Below are positions 4,626 through 55,173 of a DNA stretch of 64,000 bases, piece after piece. The position numbers and the translations under genes are program-made. Each line of letters begins with the position of its first letter. The stretch's first letter is position 1. This stretch comes from Hyposmocoma kahamanoa (taxonomy: Eukaryota > Arthropoda > Insecta > Lepidoptera > Cosmopterigidae): NCBI RefSeq assembly GCF_003589595.1, contig NW_020654289.1, positions 3,441,964 to 3,505,963 on the forward strand, given 5' to 3'. The notes beneath the pieces were generated by a model. The model searched no databases. It saw only the letters and a program-made list of their open reading frames with translations, and was not told the origin of the DNA.

Positions 4626-5365
4626 AATTATTTGTTCGTGTTATTGTTTCTGTACAAATTTATTTGCATGTAAATAATTGTTTTAATTCGTAAATAATAA
4701 AAAAATAATTACTGAAGACGTTAAGATCGGACGCCGTATACACGTGAGCTATTATCCCATTCCGCCTTTACACCTGCACAGTTGATGATTTAATGGCCGC
4801 AACTAGAAATTTTAGTGTAGCTAAATACTACACCCCAATAATAAATAGTAATTGCCACCGATACTACAAGATAAAGTGTTATTTTTCATATTCTTGCCTC
4901 TATTCTCTATATTCCTTGTGATTTATGTAAGTAGATATGTATTGCAGCATTTTTTTGTTTACATATTTATGTATAAATATAAAGTGTTTTTTTTTTTTCA
5001 TTTTTGTTTGACCTCACGCTTGACCAAAAAATTGACAGTGCCAAAATTGTTTTCACAAGAAAAGACTTAATGGTTCCTAAGACAATTTCCTCGTATCTTC
5101 TATGGTTCCGATTTTCCCCATACTGTCCCATTTAAAAAAAAAACTTAAATTCGTAGTTGAGAATTTATTAATTTATTAATACATCCGTTTTAAAGTTTTT
5201 CGTAAGTTAAAAAACTGAAGTTTTTCTAAGCCGGAGAATGTTTGAAAGATGGTAATAAAACCGACCTGTCTTTTGCTTTTTTTGTAAATGTAGATAAAAA
5301 AATTGTATGCAAATGGTATTTCATTGTTCATTGTTGTCTTATAGTTAAATTGGTTCATGGGTCCT
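4626..5365. other. AT-rich non-coding stretch
   Basis: Three short frames (60-80 codons) of low-complexity F/K/Y-rich composition; no domain seen and no coding claim made. Confidence 0.5.
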
Positions 5366-5420
5366 TGCAAAGCACGAAATCCGTAGTTAAGGCCATTTTC
5401 CCTCTATGGATGAGTTACAG
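5366..5420 (+). repeat. short dispersed repeat (ACGAAATCCGTAGTTA)
   Basis: GCACGAAATCCGTAGTTA...TCTATGGATGA matches the reverse complement of 6229-6275. Each copy flanks the transposon remnants at 5.5-6.2 kb, in opposite orientation. Confidence 0.55.
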
Positions 5421-5521
5421 CCTGGAGTTTCGATTAGGTCTGATTAGGTGTACACACACAAATGCCCGTGTCTGACCAAGCATGTTGTTAGATTTTCGTT
5501 GGAACGCGCGTTGCTCGGGCG

Positions 5522-5740
5522 TCAGCAGCGCGCTTTAACATTGTACATTCTATCGCGCGCTTTCGGGTAGAGTGGACACACGTTTGGCACAAATGGAGAA
5601 CGATCATTTCGATACTGATCTATTTTGATGAAGTTCAAAAGAGACCAGCCATTTGGGACTTGGAGAGCCCCCATAACAAATCTATCTCGTAATATTGGGT
5701 GCACCCAAAATTCTCTTTGCCTCCGCCGTCCGCCGAGCCA
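5522..5740 (-). pseudogene. PIF/Harbinger-type transposase N-terminal remnant
   Basis: The reverse strand encodes an open frame with RRRQREFWVHPILRDRFVMG (FWVHP at 5696-5710), then a ~45-residue tail that includes LLNFIKIDQY. A basic run followed by F-W-V-H-P and an R...G pair is typical of the N-terminus of PIF/Harbinger (HARBI1-like) transposases. The DDE nuclease domain is absent, so this is a truncated, non-functional remnant. It abuts a LINE RT fragment at 5750. No convincing terminal inverted repeats were found around this copy. A coincidental match is possible because the motif is short, but two further remnants with the same signature (51.4 and 54.8 kb) support the call. Confidence 0.5.
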
Positions 5741-5749
5741 ACGATCCTG

Positions 5750-6185
5750 CTAACGATCGTCTGTTCGTATTTTGTAATATGACTTTACAAATAAAATACT
5801 CTTAATGTAAGTTATAAACTTAAGAAACGATAATTTTAATATATGCTCCGGAATCTTAATGTAAAAGCGTATACAGTTCTCTATAAAAGAATAGTTTACC
5901 TTAGTTAAACGAAATCGTGGTACCAAGTGTTTGGGCTTAGTTCTAAGTTTAATATTATGGATTTCTTCTTTCAAATTTCAAAAAAATATGTATATTTTTA
6001 CTAATATACAAAATATTTGAATAAACGTCTATGAAGCTATAGTCATGATACCAGTCTTCTTAAACTTTTCTCTGAGAGAAACCCGAGAACCTAAACGATA
6101 CACAGGACGAACCGCTCGTTTTTGCAACACAAAGTATGGTTTGTATATCTGCCGCTTTACCGATTTAACAGTTTCTAACGGGCCC
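5750..6185 (-). pseudogene. non-LTR retrotransposon RT, C-terminal remnant
   Basis: Two open frames in different phases on the reverse strand read as one LINE tail. The first (to 6043) has LQKRAVRPVYRLGSR and LREKFKKTGIMTIAS. The second (5974 down to 5750) has PRFRLTKVNYSFIENCIRFY followed by a YYKIRTDD end. The LQKRA(I/V)R...YNLG...LR..F...I.T and SF..NC.RFYNK.P blocks are characteristic of the region after the reverse transcriptase domain in jockey-like elements. At least one frameshift separates the parts, and the polymerase domain itself is missing. It is a dead insertion on the strand opposite to most other LINE pieces here. Confidence 0.75.
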
Positions 6186-6228
6186 GTCTTTTCGTTGGCG
6201 GACTTTGAGAGTAGTCTCATAGGACACG

Positions 6229-6275
6229 TCATCCACAATGAAAAGACGACCGTAACTACGGATTTCGTTCTTTGA
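6229..6275 (-). repeat. short dispersed repeat (ACGAAATCCGTAGTTA), inverted copy
   Basis: Reverse complement of the 5366-5420 repeat. Confidence 0.5.
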
Positions 6276-6286
6276 GTGTAGGGAGA

Positions 6287-6350
6287 GCAGAGCAACGGAA
6301 TTCACCCGAGACCAGGGGGGGTCTGGTGAATTTCGTAGCTCTGTTGCTCA
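6287..6350. repeat. imperfect hairpin
   Basis: GAGCAGAGCAACGGAATTCA and GAATTTCGTAGCTCTGTTGC form long imperfect arms around an AGACC/GGTCT core. Confidence 0.65.
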
Positions 6351-21407: not shown

Positions 21408-21693
21408 CATTGAGTTACAAAAAAATGGACGACGGGTCTAATACAAAAACCACGAAAAAAATGTCCCAAAGCAACCTATTTAAACGTAGCGACATGTAAA
21501 GGAATATGAAAAAGCTAAAACGTTGAATTTAAATGGTAATGTCATCGCAGTACTGTCTAATTTTGCTTGCTTCGCTGTCAGTTGAACAAACGAAGACTAA
21601 AGCGTGAATGACGCTCTGTATACGATTTTAACGCCCTATAAGTTCGGACACTTTTTAGCGCGGACCCGACGTCCATATAATTGTAAGTCAATG
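21408..21693 (+). mobile_element. hAT-M MITE copy 1
   Basis: 286 bp. Ends CATTGAGTTAC and GTAAGTCAATG; flanks TGTGATAT (21400-21407) and TGTGTTAT (21694-21701) match 7 of 8. Confidence 0.9.
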
Positions 21694-21779
21694 TGTGTTA
21701 TTATAAAATCACTGAGCAATAATCAGTTTGAAGACGTTTATTAGGGTATTACTCGATAATACACTCACAGGCAATACAG

Positions 21780-23262: not shown

Positions 23263-23711
23263 CTTTGGTTGATTAATAATCATAATAAATAGCATTGTTT
23301 TAATAACACAAATGTGCGTAACTTTGAAACTAAAGTCATAAGCACATACCGCCCTATGGATTCAAACAGTGGATTCAAAAATCGGACTTTCATCTGCCTT
23401 GTTTAACATTTACTATAAAATAGTAAAAGATATTCGTCATATTATTTTTCTATTTCTAATATCGCAGTCTAGAAATATAAGCATTACTAGCTGAATCTGA
23501 CATCACGGGTAATTCATCATGCGCTAGGTAGTAAGGCTATTAATTAAAATGGCGTATTGGACAACGAATAATTAATTATCTGTGTATTACATATTATAAT
23601 AATATGTACACATACAGGCCGCCCCACGGGACACAGAATGTACTTCAAATATTGTAGATAGGATATTTGTTGTGGAAAAATTATATTATTTTTAAAAGTA
23701 AGTCATCACAC
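23263..23711. other. AT-rich non-coding stretch
   Basis: Nothing recognised. Confidence 0.45.
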
Positions 23712-23997
23712 CATTGACTTACAAATAAATGGACGACGGGTCTAATACAAAAACCACGAAAAAAATGTCCCAAGTCAACCTATTTAAACGTAGTGACATG
23801 TCAAGGAATATGAAAAAGCTAAAACGTTGAATTTAAATTGTAATGTCATCGCAGTACTGTCTAATTTTGCTTGCTTCGCTGTCAGTCGAACAAACGAAGA
23901 CTAGAGCGTGAATGACGCTCTGTATACGATTTTAACGCCCTATAAGTTCGGACACTTTTTAGCGCGGACCCGACGTCCATATAATTGTAAGTCAGTG
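23712..23997 (+). mobile_element. hAT-M MITE copy 2
   Basis: 286 bp, same orientation as copy 1. Perfect 8-bp target duplication CATCACAC at 23704-23711 and 23998-24005. Right terminus GTAAGTCAGTG carries one change. Confidence 0.95.
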
Positions 23998-24123
23998 CAT
24001 CACACCGACCAAAGAAAAAAACAGTATGTATGTATTTTTATGATGCCGATAAAAAGGGTCAATTAAAAGATTAATTTAAAGTATCTTAATTTGAAGGGAT
24101 ACCGTTTAATTACACCACTATGC

Positions 24124-27034: not shown

Positions 27035-27053
27035 TTTAATTTTTTGAAGTTTA

Positions 27054-27665
27054 TCCGCTCACGCGATGCGCTCATCCTACCGCAAAATGGTGGCTATTTG
27101 GTTTCACAAATTAGAAAAGGATTCAGTTTAAATACAAGTTTTTATAAATAAAAATTATTATTCTGCATTGCTAAATAAATACCCTCCGTACTACAACAAA
27201 AACATCTCAAATAAAATGCAGTAATACACCGCAAATCCTGCACTTAAAAAGCACTATTGACATTTTTGGTGTACTTGGGTAAATATGATAATATTCCGTT
27301 TGAGTGGTTCTAACGTTCACCATGAAATTACTCCTTAAAGTACCTATAGTTTATAAACATTTATATTCAGGGCAAACTTAAAAAACGCTACTTATGATAT
27401 GTTTTCAATAAATAAACACCGAAATCACCAGCCCAAACAATAACACACACGATTGTCGTGACGTATTTTTGAAGTTGTTTATTTTTTTTAAATGACAGAC
27501 CCAGGTATTAAAAACTTTATGGTTTGCCAGAGTAGTTACCGAAATAGCAATTAATATTAGTTCTTTTAGCTGTTATAACTTCGATATCCGATAAATCGGT
27601 ATAAAATCACCACCGGCACCTCTAGGTGTGGTATGCGTCTATGGCTGCATGTATCGCGTGAGCGG
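27054..27665 (+). mobile_element. 612-bp MITE, copy 1
   Basis: TIRs TCCGCTCACGCGATG and CATGTATCGCGTGAGCGG; TTA lies outside each end. It matches 42323-42929 along its whole length in reverse orientation. There is no coding capacity. The duplication is TA or TTA (ambiguous), so Tc1/mariner or PIF/Harbinger type are both possible. Confidence 0.9.
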
Positions 27666-28436
27666 TTAAACAAACATTAGAGAATTTCTATTGAAACCAT
27701 AATAACCTATGTTAAGTTCGGTACGTTCGGAGTTATCGTGTAACATACATACAAAAAAAAACATACAGTCGAACTAAGAATCTCCTCCTTATTTTAAATT
27801 CGGTTAATAAAAATAGCTCTGTATATGCCATATGTTGTGTTTGAGTCGTAAAAGTGTATGTGTCTTGTAATGTGTGTAGTTAGAAAGTAACGTTATAGTC
27901 AAATACGATCTTATTGCCCAAAGATACATAAGGATTAATGTTTTCAAATCGTGACCAGCAGTTTCCCAAAGTTTCCACCTTAACCCGAAGCTTTAAATCC
28001 TCAGATTGTTTCACAAGGGACCTAAGAATATTCCGTGCTAAATTGGGTAACATATACCCAGAGGGAATCTTCTAATTTATGCCAAACCAATTTAAACTTA
28101 CTTACCTCCTATTTGGGGCCTGTAGGTTAGTAAAATTTCGTCAACAGATTTTCGTAAGTTAATTTTATTGTAAAATCTCGATTTAAGGACCCTGTGATTT
28201 TTGCGAAGGAGAATATTCTTGACATTTTCTTTCAAGAAATTTGTCACGTTGAGTGAATTAATTTGTTTTTGAAAGATTTTACATGAAAGATGAAAAATAA
28301 ATGTCAAAGGTTAAGTTGTTAAATGTTTAGTATACATTAGACAATCTGAGTAGCCCCGTAATTAGCATAAATGGTCGCTTGACTCTCGGTTCAATAACTT
28401 TTTTCAATCCGAAGACATTACCTATTCTAAATTCAA
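27666..28436. other. non-coding stretch
   Basis: AT-rich; 69-codon reverse frame (28098-28307) without a domain. Confidence 0.45.
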
Positions 28437-40178: not shown

Positions 40179-40358
40179 ATAATAATACTTACGTTGTTAA
40201 CAAGAATTATTATTATTAAAGCATATAGGTTTATATATGCTTTAGCCATGGCTATTTATTATTATTTTTATTCGAAAAAAACAATCTCTAGAGTTTCTTG
40301 CTCGTTCTTTTCAGTGGAATCAGTGAACGAGCAGTGGCTTAAATGTGACGTTTGCAAG

Positions 40359-40647
40359 CATTGACTTACAAATAAATGGACGACGGGTCTAATACAAAAA
40401 CCACGAAAAAAATGTCCCAAGTTTTCCTACCTAAACCTATTTCAACGTAAAATTGTTACATGTAAAAGAATATGAAAAAGCTAAAACGTTGAATTTAAAT
40501 TGTAATGTCATCTAATTTTGCTTGCTTCGCTGTCAGTCGAACAACCGAAGACTAAAGCGTGAACGACGCTCTGTACACGATTTTAACGCCCTATAAGTTC
40601 GGATACTTTTTAGCGCGGACCCGACGTCCATAAATTGTAAGTCAATG
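40359..40647 (+). mobile_element. hAT-M MITE copy 3
   Basis: 289 bp. Flanks TTTGCAAG (40351-40358) and TTTTCAAG (40648-40655) match 7 of 8. Contains a short duplication (CCTACCTAAACCTATTTCAA) and a small deletion relative to other copies. Confidence 0.9.
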
Positions 40648-40775
40648 TTTTCAAGTGTAAATTTATTTTACCTATGGAATAAATGATTGAATGACTTTTT
40701 TGAAACGTTTGTCTGGTGCTTTTGTCTGGTACAAATACATTATTACTATCCATAGCAATAAAAGATGATCTTGAT

Positions 40776-42244: not shown

Positions 42245-43025
42245 GTACCGTCGAACAAGTCGTGCGCTTGATGGTAAACTACACGCCTGTCCATAACAGT
42301 TGCAGTGTCATTCAGAGCTTTATCCGCTCACGCGATACATGCAGCCGTAGACGCATACCACACCTAGAAGTGCCGGTGATGATTTTATACCGATTTATCG
42401 GATATCGAAGTTATAACAGGTAAAAGAACTAATATTAATTGCTATTTCGGTAACTACTCTAGCAAACCACAAAGTTTAATGCCTGGGTCTGTCATTTAAA
42501 AAAAATAAACAACTTCAAAAATACGTCACGACAATCGTGTGTGTTATTGTTTGGACTGGTGATTTCGGTGTTTATTTATTGAAAACATACCGTAAGTAGC
42601 GTTTTTTAAGTTTACCCTGAATATAAATGTTTATAAACTATACTTTAAGGAGTAATTTCATGGTAAACGTTAGAACCGCTCAAACGGAATATTATCATAT
42701 TTATCCAAGTACACCAAAATTTTCATTAGTGCTTTATAAGTGCAGGATTTGCGGTGTATTACTGCATTTTATTTGAGATGTTTTTGTTGGTAGTACGGAG
42801 GGTATTTATTTAGCAATGCAGAATAATAATTTTTATTTATAAAAACTTGTATTTAAACTGAATCCTTTTCTAATTTGCGAAACCAAATAGCCGCCATTTT
42901 GCGGTAGGAGGAGCGCATCGCGTGAGCGGTTAAATCGCAAAGGTCTGAGGGGCATGCCCACTGTGCCCGTCACCCTGTGACATATATAAGTTGATAAGTC
43001 CCATATGCCTGTCATTTCACCCTTA
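42245..43025 (-). repeat. Rep-A interrupted by the 607-bp MITE
   Basis: Left part 42245-42322 (ACTTGTTCGACGG to AAAGCTCTGAATGACACTGC on the reverse strand) and right part 42930-43025 (GGGCATGCCCCTCAGACCTT). The break falls in the TTTAAA of Rep-A and the two halves are otherwise continuous. Confidence 0.85.
42323..42929 (-). mobile_element. 607-bp MITE, copy 2
   Basis: Full-length inverted match to 27054-27665 with identical termini. Removing it and one TTA restores Rep-A sequence AGCTTTAAATCGC. Confidence 0.95.
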
Positions 43026-44887: not shown

Positions 44888-45009
44888 TTATAATCATAAA
44901 AGAAAAAAAGATCAAATAAAAAAGTTAACTTCCGGAAAACAGCTTTTAAAATTTAAGCTTTAGACTACAATCGGACATTTTACAAGGTACAAAATTTTTC
45001 AGGTTCAGG

Positions 45010-45295
45010 CATTGACTTACAATTATATGGACGTCGGGTCCGCGCTAAAAAGTGTCCGAACTTATAGGGCGTTAAAATCGTATACAGTGCGTCATTCACG
45101 CTTTAGTTTTCGTTTGTTCGACTGACAGCGAAGCAATCAAAATTAGACAGTACTGAGATGACATTACAATTTAAATTCAACGTTTTAGCTTTTTCATATT
45201 CCTTTACATGTCACTACGTTTAAATAGGTTGACTTGGGACATTTTTCTCGTGGTTTTTGTATTAGACCCGTCGTCCATTTATTTGTAAGTCAATG
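45010..45295 (-). mobile_element. hAT-M MITE copy 4
   Basis: 286 bp, opposite orientation to copies 1-3. Perfect target duplication GGTTCAGG at 45002-45009 and 45296-45303. Confidence 0.95.
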
Positions 45296-45828
45296 GGTTC
45301 AGGCCTAAGCTAGTAAAGAATACATAGAGGGCATACTTTTTGCAGTCTATAATGAATACCCCATGATCGTATAGAATACATTGCGTTAAATTTGAATGCC
45401 ACGTTTTCATTGTAATAAATAAAAAATAAATAAAAATAAAAAGGCTTTATTCTTTAACACAACATTGAAACATAAAAAACTTAAAATAAATGGCTGTGTT
45501 GAAGAAAAGGTAACAGCCATTTGCTGGTTTTCAGCTTTACCTCGTATATAATGTAGAACTACAAGTGAAGTATATTCGTCGCTGTAGACACCGCAGTATG
45601 CCGTTTCTAATTAAATATGTAATTATGAAAGCACATCGCTCACCGCAACTACACAATTAACGTACTTTATCGTACAGTGAGCGTTAACGTGATCATAGCA
45701 ACAATATTGTCTGGATCTGAATCACTTCAGACGTTATTCACACATTGGTATACATGGTGCTATGAGGTTAAATTAGAAAAAAAATCGAGATTTTTGTTCA
45801 ATGACGTTATCGTTTTGAACGTGCGACA
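45296..45828. other. non-coding spacer between two hAT-M copies
   Basis: AT-rich; a 69-codon frame at 45677 runs into the next MITE and is not a gene. Confidence 0.45.
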
Positions 45829-46114
45829 CATTGACTTACAATTGTATGGACGTCGGGTCCGCGCTAAAAAGTGTCCGAACTTATAGGGCGTTAAAATCGT
45901 ATACAGAGCGTCATTCACGCTTTAGTCTTCGTTTGTTCGACTGCCAGCAAAGCAAGCAAAATTAGACAGTACTGCGATGACATTACAATTTAAATTCAAC
46001 GTTTTAGCTTTTTCATATTCCTTTACATGTCACTACGTTTAAATAGGTTGACTTGGGACATTTTTTTCGTGGTTTTTGTATTAGACCCGTCGTCCATTTA
46101 TTTGTAAGTCAATG
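45829..46114 (-). mobile_element. hAT-M MITE copy 5
   Basis: 286 bp. Perfect target duplication GTGCGACA at 45821-45828 and 46115-46122. Confidence 0.95.
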
Positions 46115-46212
46115 GTGCGACATAAGAATTTGAAAATACGATAAGAAGGCAAACTTATCCTATAAATTGATTTATGCGAACTAATTTTGAAGAACTTAAT
46201 GATGCACACAAG

Positions 46213-47037: not shown

Positions 47038-47210
47038 AGCCGTCTGTAGATTACTTAATACATTAACTACTTACGGCATAAATATCTTGTTTGTACTCAA
47101 CAATTTGGGATCATCACTCTGCAGTTGTTAGCTTAGAGACAGTGACTTCATAATTTAAGTTTATTAAGGCGAAACACCGGGGGAAAAGTGCAAAAAACTT
47201 GTTTGCTAGG

Positions 47211-47496
47211 CATTGATTTACAATTATATGGACGTCGGGTCCACGCTAAAAAGTGTCCGAACTTATAGGGCGTTAAAATCGTATACAGAGCGTCATTCAC
47301 GCTTTAGTCTTCGTTTGTTTGACTGACAGCGAAGCAAGCAAAACTAGACAGTACTGCGATGACATTACAATTTAAATTCAACGTTTTAGCTTTTTCATAT
47401 TCCTTTACATGTCACTACGTTTAAATAGGTTGACTTGAGACATTTTTTTCGTGGTTTTTGTATTAGACCCGTCGTCCATTTATTTGTAAGTCAATG
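47211..47496 (-). mobile_element. hAT-M MITE copy 6
   Basis: 286 bp. Perfect target duplication TTGCTAGG at 47203-47210 and 47497-47504. Confidence 0.95.
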
Positions 47497-47542
47497 TTGC
47501 TAGGTCATGGTTTAGGCATTTAAGTATTGACTACTAAATATA

Positions 47543-51040: not shown

Positions 51041-51043
51041 TAA

Positions 51044-51702
51044 GGCTCAAATCACACTGGCGCATAGTCGAAGCGTCGCAATGCGTCGTGTTTTTCGCCA
51101 ATAGTATATTCATCTATATTTTCCTATTATTAAGGTACACATTTGAGTTATGCAAATATGGAATCGCGCGTTGACGCTTGATTAAAGTCGAACGGTTTTG
51201 CGCGAGTAACGCACGGCGACGCGTCAAACGCCGGCCACACCAGACGTAGCACAGTACCGAACTGCGACGAGACGAGTGCGCGACAATGGATGAAGACGAA
51301 AACTTAATTTACTTATGCCTAAAATATGAACGTCATTTTGAGAGCTGGCTTTTACGTTAATTAAACGACGATTAACGATTAACGTTATTATAAAGTGTTT
51401 TGAATACGCCAAATATACGTCTTTTCTTCCATAACTCGTGAACCCAAAATTTTCGATTTCTTGTTTCTTCCTCTTCAGCTTCAGATATAAGAGCAATTAA
51501 TAATAAGATCGATATCAACCATTGTATACTGTCGAGCACGAGCGCCATTCACGAATGTTCAAAAGTCTCTGAACCGGTCCAGCACTGTGATCCGGGTGCG
51601 CTAATGCGAGTGTCGTAGCGCGACGACGCGTGTCGTCACGTGTTGTAGTTGAAAAGCCTTGACGCGACGCGACGCATTGACTGCGCTAGTGTGAATTGAG
51701 CC
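51044..51702 (-). mobile_element. PIF/Harbinger-derived non-autonomous element
   Basis: About 659 bp. TIRs GGCTCAAATCACACTGGCGC (left) and GCGCTAGTGTGAATTGAGCC (right), about 21 bp with two mismatches; TAA and TTA lie outside the left and right ends, fitting the TWA target of this superfamily. Subterminal CGACGCGACGC-like tracts. On the reverse strand at 51387-51515 a frame reads ILLLLIALISEAEEEETRN then RKFWVHELWKKRRIFGVFKT (FWVH at 51438-51449), an N-terminal PIF/Harbinger transposase segment. The catalytic domain is deleted. A 90-codon frame listed across this segment is a shadow in another phase. Confidence 0.85.
51387..51515 (-). pseudogene. PIF/Harbinger transposase N-terminal exon remnant
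   Basis: Hydrophobic/acidic leader (ILLLLIALISEAEEEE), then a basic run, FWVHELW, KKRRIFG and VFKTLY. This order (acidic leader, RKFWVH, W..R...G.F.TL) is the conserved start of HARBI1-like transposases. It lies inside the TIR-bounded element and is free of stops over about 43 codons, then ends in stops. No DDE motif remains. Confidence 0.8.
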
Positions 51703-51799
51703 TTAAGCATTCCTTTCTTTGACGCTTTATTTAATAGCAGCATCGACCTTATAACTCAAGAGGATTGTTAATCTCCATTCTACAGATCGTTACTCTGAA

Positions 51800-54469: not shown

Positions 54470-55173
54470 TCCGAATCCGAGAATATACAGATATAGAAAA
54501 CTCGGACCGACTACAGATATCACTTGTGCACTAAGTCCGGTACAAAACCGAGAAAATACGAGTATTGCTTGTACACCTGGAGATTACTACTAACTATTCG
54601 TCATTTCAATCTCCGTCAACTTTTGGCATTGTTAGTACAGACAGCGGCACATCAAGCTACACATTGACGGACCTTGTTCCGTTGCACTGGAGGCGATAGT
54701 CGAACAAAAGTGTACAGCTTCATGTGCTGTTGACGTACATAGAAAGACGCAGAAAAAAGAAGTTTTGGGTACACCTTTTCCTGTTGAACTGTTTTTCAGA
54801 GTAAAATTTTAAAATAATTACGATGAAATGAAAATAGGTACCAAGAAACTTAGTAATAATTATTACTCATGGGAGTGTCTACTTTTAATTAAGTAGGCAC
54901 TCCCATCAGTAATACTTGTTAACATGCAATTGCATTATTATATATATTATGTGTCTCGATACTATTGAGGCTTCCATTCATCCCTCCGCGCAGTCGTCAC
55001 CGCCGCAGTACACAAGCGTTAATAATACGAATGATACCGTACTTAGGTCCTCGAAAATAATGATCCGAATTGAACGTATTCTCGACTTCGGAAGACGAAA
55101 TTCGGATTTAGTGCGCAATCACTCATATAAATAGTACTACGACTACTTTGGACAGTTATTTCTCGGATTCGGA
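54470..55173 (+). mobile_element. possible PIF/Harbinger-derived element
   Basis: Ends TCCGAATCCGAGAATATAC (left) and GTTATTTCTCGGATTCGGA (right) are inverted. At 54721-54800 a forward frame reads QLHVLLTYIERRRKKKFWVH (FWVH at 54763-54774) and then LFLL, like the transposase heads at 5.7 and 51.4 kb. No clear target duplication; the element limits are tentative. It contains the hairpin at 54862-54913. Confidence 0.45.
54862..54913. repeat. hairpin with 23-bp arms
   Basis: ATTACTCATGGGAGTGTCTA...CTT and AAGTAGGCACTCCCATCAGT...AAT, two mismatches, loop TTAATT. Confidence 0.9.

Follow-up and report, generated by a model that had tools for sequence, protein, structure and literature searches.

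A two-headed PIF/Harbinger MITE of Hyposmocoma kahamanoa and its probable origin from an element with predicted interlocked genes

The window analyzed here, a 64,000-nucleotide stretch of the genome of the lepidopteran Hyposmocoma kahamanoa (contig NW_020654289.1 of assembly GCF_003589595.1, positions 3,441,964 to 3,505,963), contains at 51044–51702 a 659-bp miniature inverted-repeat transposable element (MITE) of the PIF/Harbinger type, with inverted ends that match each other. The element is two-headed, retaining on opposite strands the starts of both Harbinger genes, one for a transposase and one for a protein with a MADF domain. With a probability of about 0.93, it is a non-autonomous element that arose when an autonomous element from the clade to which the elements designated here C531, C1126, and C1631 belong underwent a single internal deletion. 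Such a parent would have carried a MADF gene on the plus strand and a DDE_Tnp_4 transposase gene on the minus strand, antiparallel and with their first exons adjoining opposite terminal inverted repeats (TIRs). The deletion would have taken everything between about codon 20 of the MADF gene and about codon 60 of the transposase gene, fusing the two gene starts; with the genes interlocked as predicted, such a deletion would keep both heads and destroy both genes at once. The fused copy would then have been amplified by proteins of intact elements acting in trans on its TIRs, with insertion at TTA or TAA; we infer both this mobilization and the identity of the element that supplied the proteins. 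The features of the window copy are as follows.

51041–51043, no strand: left flank TAA, target-site remnant (read from the sequence)
51044–51087, plus strand: left TIR (inverted-repeat comparison and pattern match)
51286–51330, plus strand: head of the MADF protein, the second Harbinger gene, starting MDEDENLIYLCLKYE (consensus, tblastn, and position)
51331–51385, no strand: deletion-junction region between the two heads, rearranged in the window copy (no match to the common junction)
51386–51522, minus strand: head of the Harbinger transposase, in which the ATG at 51522 is the start used by the family; the window copy has a frameshift and a deletion of about 30 nt
51661–51702, minus strand: right TIR (inverted-repeat comparison and pattern match)
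51703–51705, no strand: right flank TTA, target-site remnant (read from the sequence)

The 21-base TIR pattern GGCTCAAWTCACACTRGCGCA was found in the window only at 51044–51064 on the plus strand and 51682–51702 on the minus strand, both without mismatch, in a scan that allowed up to three mismatches and for which 0.01 matches were expected. An earlier note on this DNA had described a TIR-bounded element, as is borne out here, with TWA-type flanks; both flanks are indeed TWA, but they are unequal (TAA on the left, TTA on the right), so the window copy alone has no clean target duplication. It is the exception among eight aligned copies, the other seven having TTA/TTA or TAA/TAA duplications that represent six independent sites, as the copies L002 and L003 have their flanks in common. 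The family thereby combines TIRs with the 3-bp TWA target duplication of PIF/Harbinger elements. Seven of the eight aligned copies are 644–689 bp long, and the eighth (L005, 1537 bp) holds an insert. When the element was used as a query against the 728-Mb genome, 77 matching stretches were found (40 of 1871 candidates scored), which is not a copy count because split copies and cross-matches between inverted TIRs are included. The TIR pattern together with TWA, at up to two mismatches, occurs 1487 times in forward and 1508 times in reverse orientation in the genome, and a reversed control gave 0 and 0. TIR pairs 190–581 bp apart were seen by eye among the matches listed, so shorter relatives exist. 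A shorter relative is the MITE of about 320 bp at L070:128–449, whose ends belong to the same TIR family and in which neither gene head is matched. The family is thus short, bounded by TIRs, present in many copies, and without an intact gene, as is usual for a MITE. Counts of a CGACGC-type motif, a candidate binding motif for the MADF protein, rise toward the ends in only some of the copies.

The transposase head was recognized from a peptide, EAEEEETRNRKFWVHELWKKRRIFG, that sits in a 58-amino acid (aa) open reading frame (ORF) on the minus strand at 51372–51548. Compared with 120 proteins, the listed relatives of the C531 transposase, this peptide matches 41 at E≤1e-3; the best alignment (45% identity, E 6e-10 within that set) pairs its residues 15–56 with residues 6–47 of a Pararge aegeria PF13359 protein 400 aa long. 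The reading of the peptide as the N-terminus of a DDE_Tnp_4 (Harbinger) transposase, already proposed in the earlier note, is supported by these alignments. The start chosen there (MALVLDSIQW...), however, is not that of the family: a consensus head, MVDIDLIIIALISEAEEEETEIISEAEGRKRKRKFWVHELWKKRRILGEFKTLCSNDLSRDSRYFYDYY, derived from 28 core rows (27 of the MITE family and the head region of C531, with nine loci dropped as duplicates), begins with MVDIDL and is open for 69 codons, and in the window copy the family-start ATG and the motif RKFWVH lie in different frames. The consensus matches 64 of the 120 listed proteins at the same threshold, the best being a protein of Danaus plexippus (49% over 69 residues), and its alignment with annotated lepidopteran PF13359 proteins runs start to start; in these, compared as proteins, the head and the DDE part form one chain as they do in the C531 model. 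Heads of the same kind were found in this genome in sense orientation upstream of DDE exons; of those fetched, the head of C531 (53% over 66 aa) is closest to the consensus, ahead of those of C1126 (46% over 69 aa) and C1631 (49% over 39 aa). The earlier note had also considered such a remnant rare, which is too strong for this genome, where at least one end of the MITE TIR is present in 26 of the 30 fetched loci that the peptide matched (the window itself is one of these, and some are duplicates).

It could be argued that the MITE is an unrelated one whose open frames arose by chance, as a Pfam scan called neither the window peptide as a Harbinger family nor the plus-strand mini-ORF as MADF, and searches of PDB with the window peptide and of a large protein set with padded peptides gave no match. 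These Pfam and PDB results for the transposase peptide are not decisive because the DDE_Tnp_4 match of Pfam begins only at residue 170 in C531; the MITE holds the head alone, while C531 has the full domain, and with the full-length C531 transposase as query the same protein set gave 3097 proteins, of which the 120 used here were listed. The E-value of the window peptide, the start-to-start alignment of the consensus, and the same-kind heads upstream of DDE exons make a chance origin extremely improbable.

The earlier note took the transposase head as the coding remnant of the element; that head is present, but a second one, the MADF head on the plus strand from 51286, had been missed. The consensus plus-strand head, MDEDEKLIYLIQKYECLYNI, is likewise open and corresponds to MADF exon 1 of C531, MEMDEEKLIYLVQMYDCLYNI, which is itself a match to Pfam MADF (PF10545) at 34 bits. 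A tblastn search with this exon found seven distinct sister copies at 65–78% identity (E 2e-4 to 3e-3). Short MADF pieces on their own, the window mini-ORF among them, received no Pfam MADF call, and support for the identification comes instead from the tblastn matches to sister copies together with position and strand. Here too the MITE holds only the head of the second gene (Myb or MADF) expected of a PIF/Harbinger element, and the full domain is found in the spliced C531 model.

A common junction, at which about codon 20 of the MADF gene is joined to about codon 60 of the transposase gene, is present in 17 of the 28 core rows (the near-duplicates L002 and L003 both among them), and fits one founding deletion. 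One further row, L040, is a doubtful addition in which the MADF side is missing, and the remaining 10, including the window copy and C531, have no junction match or do not extend that far. The sequence ATAA occurs at both points of C531 that are equivalent to the ends of the deletion, and the join fits this 4-base microhomology; a 2,643-bp microhomology deletion in a C531-like element would therefore yield such a join, a model only, since C531 is not the direct parent, and one in which microhomology repair is what we infer. The two coding fragments might instead have been captured separately, by transduplication, and with the exact parent not found, it cannot be demonstrated base by base that the interior is continuous with a single parent. 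Separate capture is nevertheless very unlikely, as both fragments are gene starts, they have the order, strands, and positions relative to the TIRs that are seen in C531, and they are joined at one common junction.

The full element C531 (G000:C531:619403-622852) is 3,450 bp long, with a TTA/TTA target duplication and TIRs whose first 40 nt are identical to each other. Its predicted spliced transposase has a DDE_Tnp_4 domain (E 2.4e-30), and its predicted spliced second gene has a complete MADF domain (E 1.2e-18), of which exon 1 alone reaches only profile positions 1–41 of 84. Over 70% of the query, the transposase shares 91% identity with the protein of Spodoptera frugiperda LOC118277359, and it is 56%, 55%, and 53% identical over 99% of its length to proteins of Pararge aegeria, Chilo suppressalis, and Leptidea sinapis, respectively. 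All eight relatives inspected read through the position of the C531 exon join (...LRFL...) as a single chain; no relative of the transposase was found in PDB. ISL2EU elements, which are Harbinger-like, are defined by a second gene with a YqaJ nuclease (as described in the part of PMC9179366 consulted), and the MADF second gene places C531 outside that group.

The link to an autonomous parent suggested in the earlier note, with a DDE transposase between the same ends, was thus found in part. C531 has the transposase, the TTA sites, and the same first 14 TIR bases, but because only these bases agree and its head is 53% identical, C531 is a relative of the parent of the MITE and not the direct parent; full identity of the TIRs was not seen. 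The clade of the parent has been found, but the exact parent has not. Several observations weigh against the proposed origin. The TIRs of C531 and the MITE differ after those 14 bases, GGCTCAACTCACAC; no full element carrying the whole MITE TIR was found; and C531 is isolated, the next full-length DDE match being 58% and a partial one 62% identical. In resemblance to the MITE head, the Danaus protein is about equal to C531. The eight aligned copies are only 77–97% identical in pairwise comparison, on which ground the family is probably old, and in the window copy both heads have decayed, about 30 nt of the transposase head are gone, and the junction is unmatched.

Other candidates for the parent fared no better. 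C1126 is interlocked, but has a different TIR (GGGCCTACGCAGAC). C1631 has the head, MADF exon 2, and DDE part in interlocked order, and no MITE-type TIR was found in 4600 bases at up to three mismatches. Adjoining the C1631 element is a 432-aa open frame on the minus strand (L077:3305–4600), which we take to resemble a piggyBac transposase. The stretch C147:4101577-4103880, in which a TIR pair lies 2.3 kb apart, proved to be an approximately 320-bp MITE plus a stray end rather than a larger element, and the possible intermediates C140:7317947-7319703, C1659:198255, and C694:9905539 had no match to the DDE part or MADF exon 2 in the stretches read. Among 30 DDE_Tnp_4 loci with 1.5-kb flanks on each side (L009–L038, the best 30 of 150 matches listed), none had the MITE TIR at up to three mismatches within those flanks, and a degenerate search for the 14-base TIR with TWA hit no locus except L012, whose match is the C1126 TIR.

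The order of parts in C531 is MADF exon 1 (plus), the transposase DDE exon (minus), MADF exon 2 (plus), and transposase exon 1 (minus), so that in the predicted models the genes are antiparallel and interlocked, the second exon of each lying inside the intron of the other. The same 30 loci were surveyed for this layout, a locus being called interlocked when the DDE exon had antisense MADF exons on both sides, exon 2 upstream and exon 1 downstream. Single, untrained tblastn queries made from C531 parts showed six interlocked loci (L022, L028, L029, L030, L034, and L035). With MADF profiles trained iteratively on the same loci there were 14; three others had exon 2 upstream only, five had exon 1 only, seven had neither, and one had both MADF parts downstream, its exon 2 part being weak (E 0.003). 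No MADF match at E≤0.01 was in sense with the central DDE exon. Clustering at 80% DDE identity reduces the loci to 24 clusters, and an interlocked member is present in 13 of them.

Splice signals on the transposase side agree with this layout. In all 14 interlocked-type heads that reach the intron (some of them near-identical copies), GT follows directly after the same codon, as AG|GT in 12 and in the weak form GTGGGC in C1126, while all five heads of the exon-1-only loci continue without an intron into FLAT or YLAT. Toward the end of MADF exon 1, a donor-like site was seen only in C531, L022, L027, L028, L034, and L035; in the other loci none was located and the frame continues. Acceptor sites were read in C531 only. 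It might be supposed that nested insertions, or host MADF genes close to transposases, only give the appearance of such a layout, given that the loci span only 1.5 kb on either side of the DDE match, the gene models are predicted and the profiles were trained on the loci surveyed, and the splice sites of the MADF gene are incompletely seen. This is unlikely, as the order and strands recur in 14 of 30 loci and 13 of 24 clusters with no sense MADF match, were present in six loci before any training, and are accompanied by the position-specific GT and by intronless exon-1-only heads; moreover, C531 is bounded by a single TIR pair and a TTA duplication, and its MADF domain is complete only once spliced.

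In a tree of DDE sequences (the best 30 matches with C531 and C1631, midpoint-rooted for drawing and with one very long outgroup branch), all 25 rows that bear MADF fall into one group (94/91). The six rows that lack exon 2 in the intron are likewise united (100/99) and are enclosed by interlocked rows (forks of 98/95 and 87/76); because of this nesting interlocking looks ancestral within the sample. In these six loci (L017, L020, L023, L033, L036, and L038) no MADF exon 2 was detected upstream of the DDE exon. The five heads seen from the group lack the intron at LR|FL, and the group appears to have lost the interlocking. We give about even odds that interlocked antiparallel genes are an old, conserved layout of insect Harbinger elements, transcribed in both directions, hard to separate, and possibly self-limiting through double-stranded RNA.

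Harbinger systems with two proteins are well known, and the MITE itself is of an ordinary, known kind; within the searches made, the predicted interlocked layout of the parental clade and the two-headed remnants go beyond what is known. In rice, the Tourist-like MITE mPing derives from a larger two-gene element and is mobilized by the ORF1 and TPase proteins of Ping or Pong (PMC10288884, in the part consulted). The Hyposmocoma MITE likewise appears to come from a larger two-gene PIF/Harbinger element, but it keeps the starts of both genes, its exact parent was not found, and it is known here from sequence alone, whereas the movement of mPing is known. Insect PIF elements carry a transposase and a MADF gene, and some such pairs, LPLG2/LPM2 among them, have been co-domesticated (PMC9710019); these are the same two proteins as in C531. 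None of the words nested, opposite, orientation, and overlap appears in the main text of that paper, whereas the genes of the C531 clade are predicted to be interlocked. In the zebrafish element Harbinger3_DR, subterminal motifs are bound by the Myb-like protein, and the two proteins must interact for both to enter the nucleus (as described in PMC9710019); the likeness lies in the two-protein system, compared by proteins and not by gene layout. No earlier description of the interlocked layout was found in the available portions of the open-access literature (including PMC11893794, PMC2528002, and PMC8616336), a body that does not extend to Casola et al. (2007) or Kapitonov and Jurka (2004).

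The occurrence of a two-headed MITE and a related full element in one genome shows how a MITE family was probably made, and ties that family to a transposase clade. If the interlocking is real, it would offer a simple explanation for the lasting association of the transposase with its MADF partner. The overlap would be transcribed both ways, the pair would be hard to split by recombination, and two-headed MITEs would be predicted wherever the layout occurs. Should the transcripts pair, the element may restrain itself by way of double-stranded RNA, and the layout makes it testable whether overlapping antisense transcription limits a transposon.

Additional repeats were seen in the window. A second, probable two-headed Harbinger derivative lies at 5368–6274, between 46-nt inverted arms that are 78% complementary. 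Its minus strand reads RRRQREFWVHPILRDRFVMGAL, a transposase head at about 5660–5735 that is matched by seven of the 120 listed Harbinger proteins at E≤1e-3, and its plus strand reads from about 5593 MENDHFDTDLF/DEVQKRPAIWD (the slash marks a frameshift), a peptide that looks MADF-like by eye and received no Pfam call. The end of the element (5370–5434) has many matches in the genome and its interior few. Inside it is a repeat of about 390 bp (5769–6161), into which fall 39 of the 40 genome matches to a 5300–6320 query (85–88% identity), the other being the window itself. A third head-like Harbinger peptide, ERRRKKKFWVH (plus strand, 54742), lies at 54470–55173 between 14-nt perfect inverted arms and had only a weak protein match (E 0.006). 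A repeat of about 290 bp occurs at 21408–21696, 23706–24005, 45007–45296, 45821–46120, 47208–47500, and 40354–40648; within the window five copies are 95.8–97.2% identical and the sixth about 87%, which suggests a recent expansion. Finally, 27050–27670 and 42319–42934 form a 622-bp inverted duplicate that is 95% identical.
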